From: an uncultured Bacilli bacterium
GTDB taxonomy: Bacteria > Bacillota_I > Bacilli_A > RF39 > UBA660
Direction: 5' to 3'
DNA length: 37,735 bases
Assembly: GCA_944350485.1 (NCBI GenBank)
Contig: CALVPE010000056.1
Location: 1 to 37,735, forward strand
This document shows positions 1,904 to 7,923 of the stretch, piece after piece. Both the position numbers and the translations under genes were made by a program. Position 1 is the first letter of the stretch. Each line of letters begins with the position of its first letter. Under the pieces are notes generated by a model that saw only the letters and a program-made list of their open reading frames with translations, was not told where the DNA came from and made no database searches.

Positions 1904-2449
1904 ATGATATGGATTATTGTTGGAATTGTAGTTATTTTATTAATATTTGTGGTAAGTAACTATAATAAATTAGTTTCATTAAGGAATAAAGTTAAAGATC
2001 AATGGTCCCAAATTGATGTTCAATTAAAAAGACGTTTTGATTTAATACCAAACTTAATTGAAACGGTTAAAGGTTATGCTAAACATGAAAGTGAAACTTT
2101 AGAAAAAATTGTTGAAGCTAGAAATAGTTTTGTAACTGCTAAAACTCCTGAAGAGGAAATGAAAGCTAATAGTGAATTAACAAATGTAATTTCTAGATTA
2201 TTTGCTTTAACTGAAGCATATCCTGATTTAAAAGCTAATACTAATTTTACTAAATTACAAGATGAATTAACAGAAACTGAAGATAAAATTTCTTATGCTA
2301 GACAATTTTATAATGATAGTGTCTTACTTTATCAAAATAAGCTTGAAATGTTTCCTTCAAATATCATAGCTAAGATATTTGGATTTAAAGAAGAACCATT
2401 TTTTGAAGCAAATGAAACAGAAAAAGAAAATGTTAAAGTAAAATTTTAG
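1904..2449 (+). CDS. lemA: LemA family membrane-anchored protein
   Basis: Small LemA-family protein with one N-terminal membrane segment (about residues 2-20) and a long helical domain facing outward or into the envelope space. The family hallmark runs through the first 60 residues: LRNKVKDQWSQIDVQLKRR, then DLIPNLIETVKGYAKHE. The 181 aa length is typical. The molecular role of LemA proteins is poorly known; they are often encoded beside DUF2207/YgcG-type membrane proteins, as here. A hairpin with a T-tract directly follows the stop codon, so the downstream gene may be expressed by partial readthrough. Confidence 0.93.
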   Translation: MIWIIVGIVVILLIFVVSNYNKLVSLRNKVKDQWSQIDVQLKRRFDLIPNLIETVKGYAKHESETLEKIVEARNSFVTAKTPEEEMKANSELTNVISRLFALTEAYPDLKANTNFTKLQDELTETEDKISYARQFYNDSVLLYQNKLEMFPSNIIAKIFGFKEEPFFEANETEKENVKVKF

Positions 2450-2497: not shown

Positions 2498-4180
2498 ATG
2501 AAAAAATTAAAATTGTTTATTTTTATTTTCTTCTTATTTATTTCTAGTACTTTGATAGCTAAAGCTAATTCTTTAAATTCTATTGATATTAAAGGTAATC
2601 TTGATAAAAATGGAACTTTACATTTAGAAGAAATTTGGCAAATGAGGACAAACAAAGATACAGAGATCTATAAAGAAGAATACAACTTAGGAAATATGAT
2701 TATTCAAAATTTTAAAGTTCGTGATGAAAAAAGAGAATACACTAAAGTTAATAATTGGGATATAAATGGTAGTTTTAATGATAAAAAATATAAATATGGT
2801 ATTAATTACACTAATAATGGACCTGAACTTTGTTGGGGTATAAGTGAATATGGAAATAAAACTTATACAATTAGTTATGATATTGTTAATGCTGTTTTTA
2901 GCACTGAAGATGCTGATGTTCTTTATCTTAGATTAATAAATGATTTAAATTTTCCACCAAAAAGATTTAATATTCAAATAAGTGGTTTTGAAAGTTTTTT
3001 AGATACTTTAGATGTTTGGGGTTATGGATATAAAGGTTATGCCTATGTAGATTCTGGAAAAATATTTATGTCAAATGAGGAAAATACTTCTTTAAAAAAA
3101 GGTGATTATGGAGTTTTACTAGTTAAATTTCCTAAAGGAACTTTCAATATAAATCAAGATAATACTTATAATAAATATCAAACTTTTAATGATGTTTATA
3201 AAATGGCTGAAAAAGGAACTTTTGATTATAATTATAATAATAAAAATACTTTTTTGGATATTATAGTAATAATTATTTCTTTTTTATCTCAATTTGCAAT
3301 TTTCTTTTTTATATTTTTGGGTGTCTTTAAAAGTAAACAGAAATATAAATTTGGAAAATTGGGAAAAAAAATCGATATCTTCAAAGTTAATCATTTTCGT
3401 GATATTCCATGTGATAAAGATATTTATAAAGCCTATTTTATAGCAAATGCTTATAATTTAAATAAAAAAAATACGGATTTCTTTGGAACAATTTTACTTA
3501 AATGGTTAAATGAAAATAAAATAACTATTAAGAAAATTACTAAAGACAAATTAATTGGAACTAAAGAAGAAACTTGTCTTGATTTAAATAATTTTCAAAG
3601 TGATTTAGAAATTGAAAATAAATTATTTAATATGATGTATGATGCTAGTAAAGATGGTATTTTAGAAGAAAAAGAATTTGAAAAATATTCTAAAAAGAAT
3701 TATAAAAAGATATTTAAATGGTTTGATCAAGTAGAAGAATATGGTCGAGATTTATATATTAGTTTAAACTTAGTTACTAAAGATAAAAGTAAATACTTAA
3801 TACATGATGAATTAAAAGAAGAAGCAATTAAATTAGCTGGTTTAAAGAAATATTTACAAGATTTTTCAATGATTGATACTAAGCAACCTATGGAAGTTAA
3901 ACTTTGGAAAGAATATTTAATGTATGCACAAATTTTTGGAATAGCTAATTATGTTGCTAAACAATTTAAAAAATTATATCCTGAAGTTTTAGTAGAAATG
4001 CAAGCTTATAATTATGATATAGGTGATATTATATTATTAAATAGTTTTTGTCATACAGCTGTTGTTAGTGCATCGTCTGCAAGAAGTGCTGCTTCAAGTT
4101 ATAGCTCTGGTGGCGGTGGTTTTTCGTCAGGTGGTGGTGGCGGTGGCTCCTTTGGTGGTGGCGGAGGAGGTTCACGCTAA
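2498..4180 (+). CDS. DUF2207-type membrane protein with glycine-rich tail
   Basis: Predicted exported membrane protein of the DUF2207 family. It has a signal peptide (residues 1-23, likely cleavage after AKA) and an extracytoplasmic beta-rich domain (about 25-245). A membrane segment spans about residues 252-276, followed by a cytoplasmic helical domain. The last 40 or so residues are Ser then Gly-rich, ending in runs of three to six Gly between Ser and Phe. Such tails are common in this family when it is encoded beside LemA. The function is unknown; envelope homeostasis is a guess from the pairing. The ATG at 2498 is preceded by AGGAGA at 10-base spacing. Length 560 aa. Confidence 0.85.
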   Translation: MKKLKLFIFIFFLFISSTLIAKANSLNSIDIKGNLDKNGTLHLEEIWQMRTNKDTEIYKEEYNLGNMIIQNFKVRDEKREYTKVNNWDINGSFNDKKYKYGINYTNNGPELCWGISEYGNKTYTISYDIVNAVFSTEDADVLYLRLINDLNFPPKRFNIQISGFESFLDTLDVWGYGYKGYAYVDSGKIFMSNEENTSLKKGDYGVLLVKFPKGTFNINQDNTYNKYQTFNDVYKMAEKGTFDYNYNNKNTFLDIIVIIISFLSQFAIFFFIFLGVFKSKQKYKFGKLGKKIDIFKVNHFRDIPCDKDIYKAYFIANAYNLNKKNTDFFGTILLKWLNENKITIKKITKDKLIGTKEETCLDLNNFQSDLEIENKLFNMMYDASKDGILEEKEFEKYSKKNYKKIFKWFDQVEEYGRDLYISLNLVTKDKSKYLIHDELKEEAIKLAGLKKYLQDFSMIDTKQPMEVKLWKEYLMYAQIFGIANYVAKQFKKLYPEVLVEMQAYNYDIGDIILLNSFCHTAVVSASSARSAASSYSSGGGGFSSGGGGGGSFGGGGGGSR

Positions 4181-4331: not shown

Positions 4332-5060
4332 TTAATACACTACATCAGTTAAATATAAACCCTCAGGATGAGCAGTTCTAAAACCATTACTTCTATTTTT
4401 ACTTTCTAAAATTTTTAAAACTTCGATTGGTTCTTTTTTTTCTAAACCAACTTGAATTAATAAACCAACCATATTTCTAATTTGATATTTAATAAAACCC
4501 GTTCCTCTAAAAGTAAAAGTTAAAAGATCATTTTCTTCTTCTATATCAATACTTTTTATTTCTCTTGTATAACTATTTCTTTTATCTTTATTAGGAGTAA
4601 AAGCTTTAAAATCATGTGTTCCTATTAAGTATCTTGACCCTTCAACCATTTTTAAAATATTCAATTTCTTATTGAACTGATAAACATAATTTCTTAAAAT
4701 AGGATTATATTCACCCATATTTAATTTATATTTATACTCCTTTTCAAGAACCATATATCTAGCATGAAAATCATCTTTAACAATTTTTGTATTTATAACA
4801 TGAATATCATTTGGAAGTAAGCTATTTAAAGCTCTTTTCAATTTATCTTCAGTTATTTGAACATAAATATCAACATGTCCTGTTTGAAAAATTGCATGAA
4901 CCCCCTTATCAGTTCTACCACTTGCAATAATTTTAGTTTCCCTATTATTAATATAACTTAAAGCTTTTTCCATTTCTCCTTGAATAGTTCGATAATCTGG
5001 CTGATATTCAAAACCATTAAAATTTGATCCATCATAAGAAAAAGTTATTAAAAAACGCAT
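4332..5060 (-). CDS. truA: tRNA pseudouridine(38-40) synthase
   Basis: Converts uridines 38-40 in the anticodon stem-loop of many tRNAs to pseudouridine. The catalytic motif GRTDKGVHA is present with the nucleophilic Asp at residue 51. The N-terminal start (RFLITFSYDG) and C-terminal FIKYQIRNMVG are typical of TruA. At 242 aa it is full length. The ribosome binding site GAGGTAAG sits in the end of the preceding ecfT-like gene, only 4 bases upstream, so the two are co-transcribed. The ecfA-ecfA-ecfT-truA order is conserved across Bacilli and supports identification of its degenerate neighbours. Confidence 0.95.
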   Translation of the reverse strand: MRFLITFSYDGSNFNGFEYQPDYRTIQGEMEKALSYINNRETKIIASGRTDKGVHAIFQTGHVDIYVQITEDKLKRALNSLLPNDIHVINTKIVKDDFHARYMVLEKEYKYKLNMGEYNPILRNYVYQFNKKLNILKMVEGSRYLIGTHDFKAFTPNKDKRNSYTREIKSIDIEEENDLLTFTFRGTGFIKYQIRNMVGLLIQVGLEKKEPIEVLKILESKNRSNGFRTAHPEGLYLTDVVY

Positions 5061-5064
5061 ACAC

Positions 5065-5739
5065 TTACCTCACTAATAAACATAATAACAAAATTATAAC
5101 ATGAATTGACAAAAAGAAAACACCAAATCTATCAAATGATTTATTATTATTTTTATTCTTATAAAATCTTAAATATTCAATTTGAATATAATTTTCTAAA
5201 TCATTTTTAGTTAGATAATCTAAATTATCATTAATTAACTTAGCATAATTACTTTTTAAATTAATATTTTCTTCTTCTAAATAATTATCAATCAAAACTT
5301 TATTTCTTTTTTTTAAACTATCTATTTTTCTTTTTCTTAATTCTTTAAAAGTATATTTTTTCTTTTTTCCTTTTAAATATTTTATTTTTTTATTTTTAAT
5401 TTCTTTTAAAATAATAATTATATAATCAAGAACTAATAGTATTTTTAAAGTTAGAAATAAATATTTATTAAAATTAAATTGTAAGATATTAAGATTAGTT
5501 AAATTTAAAAAAAGAAAGGCTATTAATAAAATACCAGAGATATAAGTTAAAAAACTAGTTATTTTATTTTTAGAATGAATATATAAATCATAGATAAATA
5601 GATATATAATTATTGCTAACCAGATATTATTAAGAAAATAACTTGATATAATTAAAAAAATAATAGTTAATAAAAGTAAAGTATTATTTAAATCACTTAA
5701 TTTAAGCTTATCATGTTTGATTTTTAATTTCTTGAACAT
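5065..5739 (-). CDS. Divergent EcfT-like membrane protein
   Basis: Membrane protein occupying the ecfT slot, between an EcfA-type ATPase and truA. Residues about 20-110 hold four hydrophobic segments. A long Lys-rich cytoplasmic stretch (about 112-200) follows, and a last hydrophobic segment ends the protein. True EcfT proteins couple two ATPases to a vitamin-binding S component through two Ala-Arg-X motifs in the cytoplasmic region; I cannot find clear copies here. The call therefore rests on position and topology, not on motifs. The start codon overlaps the upstream gene by 29 bases and has ribosome binding site AGGAAGTG. At 224 aa it is shorter than the usual 260 or so. Confidence 0.5.
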   Translation of the reverse strand: MFKKLKIKHDKLKLSDLNNTLLLLTIIFLIISSYFLNNIWLAIIIYLFIYDLYIHSKNKITSFLTYISGILLIAFLFLNLTNLNILQFNFNKYLFLTLKILLVLDYIIIILKEIKNKKIKYLKGKKKKYTFKELRKRKIDSLKKRNKVLIDNYLEEENINLKSNYAKLINDNLDYLTKNDLENYIQIEYLRFYKNKNNNKSFDRFGVFFLSIHVIILLLCLLVR

Positions 5740-6523
5740 TTTTATACACTTCCTTTATTAAATCTTTAATATCTTTTGTATTTTTTAAAGTTTGATTATA
5801 ATTTTTAGCAATTTGATTGAACTTTATTAAATTAGGATAACTAATACCGTTTTCTTCTAAAAAAGCTAAATTTTTAAAGACCACGGTTGTTTTATCAGCT
5901 ATTACAACCTTATTTTCACTTAATATTATTAAATCATCAGTTAATTCATATAAAATATTTATATCCTTAGTTATGATAATAATTGTTTTTAAATATTCTT
6001 TTTTTAAATCAAAAATAATTTTTTTTAAATAGGTTATATGTTTTTTATCTAAATCTTTAAAAGGTTCATTTAATATTAAAATATCAGGATTAATTATTAA
6101 ATTCAATGCTATTTTAATTAATTTTTTTTCAGAATTAGCCAAGGTATAATTTTCTCTTTCTAAATAATATTCATCTAAACCTACTAAGTTTAAAACTGAA
6201 ATTATTTTGGAATGATATTCTTCTTCAGTCAAATTAGAAACTTTTCTTTGCATTAAGTAAAACTCATCTTTAACTTTTTTAGTAAAAAAAAGATTATTAT
6301 TTAAATTAGCATAAGACATCAAATTATCTTGATAATAAATTAAAGGTCGATTATTAATTAGTATATCTCCTGAATAATTAATTTTTTTGGTTAATAAGGA
6401 GATTATTAAATTTAAATTATCATTGTAAAGGCCAGTTATTCGATTATTTTGAATTTTTAAATTAAAATTTTTTATTTTTATATTATTTAACTTACATGAA
6501 ATATTTAAAAATTTTATTTCCAT
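5711..6523 (-). CDS. Degenerate ECF/ABC ATPase subunit (EcfA2 position)
   Basis: Recognisable as an EcfA-type ABC ATPase by fold, length (270 aa) and position, but most catalytic motifs are lost. The Walker A site (residues about 31-38, GLYNDNLN) lacks Gly-Lys-Ser/Thr. The signature (about 127-134) reads TLANSEKK instead of LSGGQ. Walker B (146-153) reads PDILILNEP with Asn in place of the Mg-binding Asp, though the following Glu remains. The switch His is replaced within ITKD. ATP hydrolysis at these sites is unlikely. It may be a structural pseudo-ATPase paired with the neighbouring subunit, whose gene it overlaps by 10 bases. The open frame is intact, so it is not an obvious pseudogene. 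Confidence 0.75.
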   Translation of the reverse strand: MEIKFLNISCKLNNIKIKNFNLKIQNNRITGLYNDNLNLIISLLTKKINYSGDILINNRPLIYYQDNLMSYANLNNNLFFTKKVKDEFYLMQRKVSNLTEEEYHSKIISVLNLVGLDEYYLERENYTLANSEKKLIKIALNLIINPDILILNEPFKDLDKKHITYLKKIIFDLKKEYLKTIIIITKDINILYELTDDLIILSENKVVIADKTTVVFKNLAFLEENGISYPNLIKFNQIAKNYNQTLKNTKDIKDLIKEVYKNVQEIKNQT

Positions 6524-7317
6524 AAACTCTCCTCTAATTCTTCTAAATTAAAATATATTTTATCTAATAATTCATAGAATTTTAACTTTAAAGATAAATC
6601 TATAATAAATGGTATTTCTAAACCTATTTTTCTTAAATAGTTATCATCTTCAATTATTTCTAATAAAGTTCCAGATTTTTCAATTTGAAAATTATTTAAA
6701 ACCATTATTTGATTGCTATCATAAATAGTATCTAATTTACTAGTGATATTTAAAATTGTTAAACCTTGATTATTTAATTCTTTTAATTTTTTTAACATAA
6801 ATTCTTGATCATAAATATTCATATTGTTAAAAGCATCATCTAAAACCAATAATTTTGGCTCATGAATTAAAGAAATGATAATTTGTAGCATAGCTTTTTT
6901 AGAATTATCTAATTTATTAATATTTGTATCTAAAATATCAGTTATTTGAAAATTATTACTTATTTTAGCAATCATCTTATTGATTTTATGCTCACTAAAT
7001 CCGAGATTTTGTAATGGATAAGCTAATTCATCTTTAACTTTTTTATAAAGAAATCCATGGATATCATTAGAAGCAAGACCAAGATTTGGTAAATATTTTA
7101 AAATATTTTTCTTGTTTAAAGATATTCCATCTAGTTTAAAAATATCTTCTGTAGGAATGATTGCTGAAATTAATTTGATAAGTAAAGTTTTTCCACTCCC
7201 ATTAGGAGCGATTATACTAACATAATCTTTTGTTTCGATTTTTAAAGAAAAATTTTTAAAAAAAATTTGATTATCAACTTGATAATTTAAATTATTAATA
7301 GTTAATAGACTAGCCAT
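6514..7317 (-). CDS. ECF/ABC ATPase subunit with partly degenerate motifs (EcfA1 position)
   Basis: ABC ATPase of the energy-coupling-factor type, first gene of the module ending in truA. Walker A is intact (APNGSGKT, residues 37-44). The Q-loop Gln is not evident. The signature (about 135-141) reads KLDNSKK rather than LSGGQ. Walker B ends LVLDDAF, with Asp where the catalytic Glu is usual, and the switch His is missing (ITSK). ATP binding is plausible; hydrolysis is doubtful. In ECF transporters the two ATPases drive vitamin or metal uptake through EcfT. The ATG at 7317 follows AGGTGATC. The length of 267 aa is normal. Confidence 0.8.
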   Translation of the reverse strand: MASLLTINNLNYQVDNQIFFKNFSLKIETKDYVSIIAPNGSGKTLLIKLISAIIPTEDIFKLDGISLNKKNILKYLPNLGLASNDIHGFLYKKVKDELAYPLQNLGFSEHKINKMIAKISNNFQITDILDTNINKLDNSKKAMLQIIISLIHEPKLLVLDDAFNNMNIYDQEFMLKKLKELNNQGLTILNITSKLDTIYDSNQIMVLNNFQIEKSGTLLEIIEDDNYLRKIGLEIPFIIDLSLKLKFYELLDKIYFNLEELEESLWK

Positions 7318-7354: not shown

Positions 7355-7383
7355 AAAAAGTAGAGTAATTTACATTAATCTAC
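7355..7383 (-). terminator. Probable terminator after the thioredoxin-like membrane gene
   Basis: On the minus strand GTAGA and TCTAC (plus 7379-7383 and 7361-7365) can pair around a 13-base loop, and nine T follow. The 5-bp stem is short, so confidence is moderate. It sits between the gene ending at 7375 and the ecfA-like gene starting at 7317. Confidence 0.45.
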
Positions 7384-7923
7384 ATATTTATGTAATTCTA
7401 TTTTTATTTCATCATAGTTATTGATAGTTGCAACTATCTTTCCATTTTTAACTTTTAGTAAAGTAGGATTAGTTAATTTTAAATTTTTAACATCATTAGT
7501 TATACTTAAAGTATCACCTTGACAAATTTGATTACGACTATTTCCTAAATCAACTTTATAAAGACTTATTTTTTTAGTTGCGTTATTGTAAGCTTCAGTT
7601 AAACTAGTATATAAACTAGCATTGTCGGCTTTCATATCATAGGCTAAAACAAAATATTCTTCATCTTTTCTATTTAATATGGAACCACAGGTTATCTTTT
7701 CAGTTTGAATTTCAGCCGCATAAGTTATAAAATTTTCTTTGGTAAAAAAATTCCATTCACCAGTTTTTATTTTTGTAAAAGTAAACATTAAGAAAACAAA
7801 AGCAATAACACAAACAGAAATAATTAAACCGTTTCGAACATTACTACTTAAACTACTAGTTTCAAATTCACGCATTCTTTTCTTTTCTTGTTCTAATTTT
7901 TTTTTAATTTCTTTCTTTTTCAT
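7375..7923 (-). CDS. Membrane-anchored protein with thioredoxin-like fold (predicted)
   Basis: Unrecognised 182 aa protein. A highly charged Lys/Glu N-terminus (residues 1-22) precedes one membrane segment (about 31-49). An extracytoplasmic domain of roughly 120 residues follows. Its C-terminal pattern, a Pro followed by a beta strand and a turn (NPTLLKVKNGKIV), resembles the cis-Pro strand of thioredoxin-like proteins, and the preceding EYFVLAYD strand fits. No CXXC motif is present; single Cys residues occur near ITCGS and NQICQG. A redox role is therefore not supported. The ribosome binding site GGTGAT precedes the ATG. Confidence 0.7.
   Translation of the reverse strand: MKKKEIKKKLEQEKKRMREFETSSLSSNVRNGLIISVCVIAFVFLMFTFTKIKTGEWNFFTKENFITYAAEIQTEKITCGSILNRKDEEYFVLAYDMKADNASLYTSLTEAYNNATKKISLYKVDLGNSRNQICQGDTLSITNDVKNLKLTNPTLLKVKNGKIVATINNYDEIKIELHKYVD

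Follow-up and report, generated by a model that had tools for sequence, protein, structure and literature searches.

ECF modules count as transport motors driven by ATP, and they are seen as targets for antibiotics. The Group II motor of Bacilli, EcfA-EcfA'-EcfT, is encoded in the order ecfA1-ecfA2-ecfT-truA. The coupling helices of EcfT carry two X-Arg-X anchors, and the engineered hydrolysis-dead module 2EQ forms a stable complex that is closed and has ATP bound (PMC10368641). In Listeria, the PF07456 protein EetB is an S component for FAD export that uses EcfA/EcfA' and is often encoded beside apbE (PMC9973259). ATP bound at the degenerate sites of ABC proteins has been proposed to act as a permanent glue, and Glu-to-Asp sites in such proteins can still hydrolyse slowly (PMC7756269). 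Among the papers accessible to a literature search, none described degenerate or EcfT-less ECF ATPases. Here we describe a locus with a degenerate ATPase pair in a stretch of 37,735 nucleotides, hereafter the window, from the genome of an uncultured Bacilli bacterium, probably of order RF39 (1.15 Mb, 92% complete), and its counterparts in related genera.

The window contains ecfA1 and ecfA2 as intact, overlapping frames, followed by a membrane-protein gene and then truA (Table 1). Both frames are kept in 17/17 congeners, and the probability that a random 267-codon frame is free of stops at the composition of the window (25% GC) is ∼4e-10; they are therefore not a product of chance. The earlier note on this DNA had called both frames intact and placed them before an ecfT-like gene and truA, and both statements hold. 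A gene for a membrane-anchored protein directly upstream of ecfA1 is likewise present in all 17 congeners; its product is 55-67% identical and matches neither a Pfam nor an NCBIfam family above cut-off. It is a possible partner of the ATPase pair. This protein is possibly thioredoxin-like, without CxxC; a distant relative follows ecfT in one genome (G021), and a similar protein precedes ecfA1 in another (G131). On the other side, a LemA-like protein and a large membrane protein are encoded divergently beside truA.

Table 1. Genes at the ECF-derived locus and beside it, in window coordinates.
Feature	Position	Strand	Length	Assignment or remark
LemA-like protein	1904-2449	+		
Large membrane protein	2498-4180	+		Gly/Ser-rich tail
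truA	4332-5060	-		TIGR00071, E 9e-62; ordinary downstream gene, marks the conserved ecfA1-ecfA2-ecfT-truA locus
Divergent EcfT (putative)	5065-5739	-	224 aa	Profile-profile comparison and position
EcfA2-like ABC ATPase	5711-6523	-	270 aa	Best NCBIfam match TIGR04521
EcfA1-like ABC ATPase	6514-7317	-	267 aa	Best NCBIfam match TIGR04520
Membrane-anchored protein	7375-7923	-	182 aa	Single likely span; immediately upstream of ecfA1

The EcfA1-like protein matches TIGR04520 (ECF_ATPase_1) with E 5e-36 and 124 bits (cut-off 315), and the EcfA2-like protein matches TIGR04521 (ECF_ATPase_2) with E 7e-26 and 91 bits against a cut-off of 330. Judged by these profile matches, both are clear homologues of EcfA, yet stay below the NCBIfam equivalog threshold. 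Motif positions were read from a 250-sequence alignment of the family, in which the A-loop aromatic could not be reliably aligned. EcfA1 has an intact Walker A (APNGSGKTL). Its signature is gone (LDNSK at this position), its Walker B (LVLDDAF) retains the Asp and has a second Asp in place of the catalytic Glu, and the switch His is gone (TSKL). The congeners agree: Walker A (GK[ST]) and the Walker-B Asp were found in 17/17, the catalytic Glu is lost in 17/17, with a Glu-to-Asp change in 16 of them, and the signature is present in none. The switch His is missing from all 17 in EcfA1 and in EcfA2 alike. The alignment thus bears out the earlier description of EcfA1 as an ATPase that keeps Walker A without signature, catalytic Glu or switch His.

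EcfA2 has lost its Walker A (NDN-LNL at this position), and none of the 17 congeners has one. The Walker-B Asp is replaced by Asn (LILNEPF), and the switch His is lost (TKDI). The Glu next to the Walker-B Asn, which the earlier note omitted, is retained. At the signature position the window has LANSEK (LANSE), and 15/17 congeners conserve a recoded LSxSE motif, with the signature Ser in 16/17. This conservation indicates that the signature is recoded, not random. Hence the earlier reading of EcfA2 stands for Walker A, Walker B and the switch His, and only in part for the signature. An AF2 model of EcfA2 (pLDDT 88.5) has the EcfA fold with its C-terminal domain, and its best PDB matches are CbiO/EcfA (E about 1e-18). 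Two complete composite ATP sites (Walker A, signature, catalytic Glu and switch His) were found neither in the window nor in the congeners when the motifs were tabulated.

The 224-aa protein encoded between ecfA2 and truA had no CbiQ match and nothing over the Pfam or NCBIfam cut-offs. The profile of its congeners, compared with intact EcfT of the same family, gave a probability of 93% (E 2.7e-7, 225 columns), and intermediates connect it stepwise with EcfT of other Bacilli in profile-profile comparison. The AF2 model (pLDDT 82.5) has an EcfT-like layout, with about five likely membrane helices and predicted coupling helices. In a Foldseek search with this model an EcfT chain ranked first at a non-significant E of 0.67, and identification as EcfT is therefore based on the profile-profile match and on position. 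These point to a divergent EcfT homologue. An invariant L-R-F motif aligns with the second X-Arg-X anchor; the first anchor is not recognisable. One congener (G016, L004) has an in-frame stop ∼50 codons into ecfT, which is either a nonsense mutation or an assembly error.

A second intact ECF module elsewhere in the genome, which the earlier note had proposed to look for, was not found with CbiQ, PF12822, PF07155 and PF07456. At 92% completeness, the genome contains no other EcfT by the CbiQ profile and no S component of the three families, so that of the parts of a functional ECF transporter an EcfT, divergent as it is, was found and an S component of these families was not. Nor were the components of an EetB-type FAD export module found: PF07456 is absent from the whole genus, and a search of two genomes of the genus, including that of the window, did not detect apbE. 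All results are sequence-based and come largely from metagenome-assembled genomes (MAGs), as which the named public records of this genus of uncultured Bacilli are filed, and calls of absence are conditional on how complete the genomes are and which families were searched. Separate small S-A-T operons were seen in two congeners (G007, L073; G015, L072) and in a neighbouring genus (G131, L172), and not in the window's genome. Their ATPases keep Walker A, and that of G007 also an LSGGE signature. These operons were probably acquired independently of the module at truA.

To distinguish constraint from decay, the earlier note had proposed a comparison of substitution rates in relatives, naming frameshifts or a lack of constraint as signs of decay. 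Codon models gave omega values of 0.073 for ecfA1, 0.073 for ecfA2, 0.065 for ecfT and 0.037 for truA in the pair G007/G009, all rejecting 1. This least diverged pair is the sole unsaturated one; in the others dS is saturated, and only the rejection of omega = 1 was therefore used there. That rejection held for all pairs analysed, whether congeneric or from EcfT-less genera. When the loci were scanned in all six frames, ecfA1 and ecfA2 were nowhere split or frameshifted. Constraint on the ATPases is weaker than in S-bearing genera. Since both frames are present in 17/17 congeners and dN/dS is ∼0.07, the loss of catalysis is, on the evidence of these comparisons, not simple decay.

Beyond the 17 congeners, the truA locus was then read in 100 other genera whose ATPase pair could be scored. 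EcfT is kept at the locus in some form by 57 of these genera, including one whose locus lies at a contig end (G114), and is absent in 43. A shortened, degenerate ecfT is retained in G131, G156 and G024. In the 43 EcfT-less genera EcfA1-EcfA2 still stand next to truA, and the gap between ecfA2 and truA is at most 135 bp, which leads to the call that ecfT is missing. A profile of 24 EcfT sequences gave no convincing EcfT elsewhere in their genomes. In six further genera, truA is not preceded by ECF genes. On the truA tree, the presence and absence of EcfT requires ∼13 changes, at least 6 of them on well-supported branches. No new neighbour gene is common to all EcfT-less loci of the family; the commonest upstream gene, a short-chain dehydrogenase, occurs in genera with and without EcfT.

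The PF07456 S component was found in 27 of 126 family genomes, 25 of which were scorable, and in none of the 43 EcfT-less genera. EcfT is present in 25/25 S-bearing genomes versus 34/77 without S (p 7e-8), and the complete A1 catalytic set in 19/25 versus 5/77 (p 3e-11); both are Fisher tests that ignore shared ancestry. S-bearing genera mostly have intact ATP sites, and most genera without PF07456 have degenerate ATPases. ApbE was detected in 25/27 PF07456-bearing genomes, usually beside the PF07456 gene, and four EcfT-less genomes have ApbE without EetB. Because PF07456 corresponds to EetB and usually lies next to apbE, the ancestral client of the motor in this family was probably FAD export for flavinylation by ApbE. 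Three S-bearing genomes (G146, L094; G061, L118; G153, L139) have lost the A2 Walker A and the A1 signature with the A1 catalytic set intact, and are apparent single-active-site ECF transporters.

Among genomes without S, the A1 Walker A is kept and that of A2 lost in 46, and the reverse holds in 5. The A1 signature and the A2 Walker A, which between them form site 2, are lost together, an association that ignores phylogeny; independent-pair tests of motif co-loss were not significant, with too few phylogenetically supported pairs. Site 1, formed by A1 Walker A/B and the A2 signature, keeps the A1 Lys/Gly, the A1 Walker-B Asp and the A2 Ser. By these motif counts, loss of the ATP sites is asymmetric: one composite site retains its ATP-binding residues and the other is erased. 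A small clade (G071, L165; G097, L164; G109, L163; G116, L151) mirrors the main trend, keeping the A2 Walker A and having lost that of A1, and some lineages, e.g. G084 and G023, have neither.

In the EcfT-less genera the A1 Walker A retains its Lys in 41/41 and its Gly in 39/40, and the A2 signature Ser is found in 39/43. Their C-terminal domains are conserved as well, with Pro/Leu/Tyr in 43/43 and Trp in 41/43 for A1 and a Lys in 43/43 for A2. The corresponding motifs, LPF..dLS..L..Y......V..lWK in A1 and P.i..F...DLIKdIYr in A2, persist even in proteins that have shrunk to overall lengths of about 155 and 184 aa. The ratio of C-terminal to nucleotide-binding domain identity is 1.59 and 1.34 in EcfT-less genera versus 1.09 and 1.05 in S-bearing ones. 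In the window's genus the ratios are 0.85 and 0.80, the nucleotide-binding domains being better kept, which is the opposite of the EcfT-less genera. Since different parts are conserved, the function may differ between this genus and the EcfT-less ones, and a single new role for both is not assured.

Lost catalysis, purifying selection on the frames and the lack of a second ECF module together make a role other than ATP-powered transport probable. To this extent the suggestion of the earlier note, that the proteins may have a new role, is supported in outline. We lean, with modest confidence, towards the reading that a former ECF motor lost its part in FAD export and has since been retained as a heterodimer of EcfA1 and EcfA2 that binds ATP without hydrolysing it. 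This proposal draws on the likeness of the residue pattern to degenerate ABC sites and of the module to 2EQ. The ancestral module would have exported FAD to ApbE until the EetB-type system was lost. The site made of A2 Walker A and A1 signature is erased. The site of A1 Walker A/B and the A2 signature Ser/Glu has kept its binding residues and given up those for hydrolysis (Glu to Asp, His to Ser/Asn). ATP may remain bound there and keep the heterodimer closed, with the C-terminal domains providing a constitutive interface. The heterodimer could thus be an ATP-held scaffold, clamp or sensor and not a pump, scaffold or clamp being our best guess. Where EcfT remains, as in the window's genus, it may tether the heterodimer to the membrane. 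Several observations weigh against this reading: the pair is gone from six genera, constraint falls below that of S-bearing genera, the G071 clade keeps the other Walker A and some lineages neither, G016 has a stop in ecfT, the window's genus and the EcfT-less genera conserve different domains, no new neighbour gene recurs consistently across the family, and a Glu-to-Asp site may still turn over ATP slowly (PMC7756269).

The main rival, which we consider unlikely, is a slow reductive erosion in which the motor became dispensable after S loss and decays, held by weak side constraints such as harmless folding or the expression of truA through overlapping genes, and is eventually gone. It would account for the gradient, that is, for the graded loss from intact through truncated to absent along many lineages and for the six genera without ECF genes upstream of truA; the overlap of the ecfA genes directly upstream of truA, the constraint relaxed relative to S-bearing genera and the stop in ecfT of G016 agree with it too. 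It would not account for the strength and specificity of the conservation. Purifying selection acts on the protein at the low omega of the unsaturated pair, neutrality is rejected in all pairs tested, no broken ecfA frame was seen, and the A1 P-loop Lys and the C-terminal motifs are near-invariant in EcfT-less genera despite deep divergence. Translational coupling alone is not expected to conserve amino acids.

That the locus still encodes a working, very divergent ECF transporter, for import or export, with an S component that escaped recognition and with slow hydrolysis at the one remaining site, appears improbable. The window's genome lacks a match to the three S-component families, though S components diverge strongly in sequence; the A1 Glu and switch His are lost in every congener, though Glu-to-Asp sites may hydrolyse slowly (PMC7756269). 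The genus does retain EcfT with its layout and second anchor motif, and G146, G061 and G153 carry S and seem to run with the A1 catalytic set intact and the A2 Walker A lost. Against this reading, the pair persists in 43 genera whose truA locus lacks EcfT, and the 24-sequence profile found none convincing elsewhere in them. Mis-assembled or misread frames, or mis-binning, would be conceivable in that all genomes with a name are metagenome-assembled and come from bacteria not in culture. Different samples, however, yielded 17 congeners with this arrangement and these motif changes, and dozens of genera show them too, which in practice refutes such an artefact and leaves it a negligible likelihood.

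Under the preferred reading of a retained ATP-binding heterodimer, a large family of gut Bacilli may, more tentatively, have exapted EcfA1/EcfA2 as a pair with its own cellular function, independent of transport. A pair that outlasts the S component, hydrolysis and, repeatedly, EcfT could possibly represent a new class of ABC protein that derives from ECF modules and does not serve transport, a suggestion we put forward with similar reserve. If true, this would point to a second function of the EcfA heterodimer, perhaps latent in ordinary ECF modules too. The family would offer a natural series for the stepwise loss of a motor, from two active sites to one, to ATP binding only, to a pair without EcfT, to none. 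For these genomes, annotation pipelines and metabolic models probably err when they count such genes as vitamin transporters.

Compared with the Group II ECF motor, the window locus shares homology, gene order, the EcfA fold with its C-terminal domain and an EcfT-like subunit, but no S component was found with it, catalytic residues of both sites are lost, and the scores fall far below the equivalog cut-offs. Related genera with intact modules carry a homologue of the EetB of the Listeria exporter EetB-FmnA-EcfA-EcfA', which feeds ApbE (PMC9973259), whereas the window's genus has no EetB and no apbE in the two congeners searched. Asymmetric ABC proteins such as CFTR, TM287/288 and the ABCC family (PMC7756269) resemble the pair in a retained ATP-binding site with the Walker-B Glu changed to Asp and an altered signature, and the residue pattern of site 1 fits a degenerate-site ABC heterodimer; these proteins keep a second, hydrolysing site, which is gone in the window pair. 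The engineered solitary module 2EQ (PMC10368641, PDB 8BMS) is likewise S-less and hydrolysis-dead, but it was made in the laboratory by a double Glu-to-Gln mutation and has both binding sites intact, whereas the window pair is natural and has one site erased.
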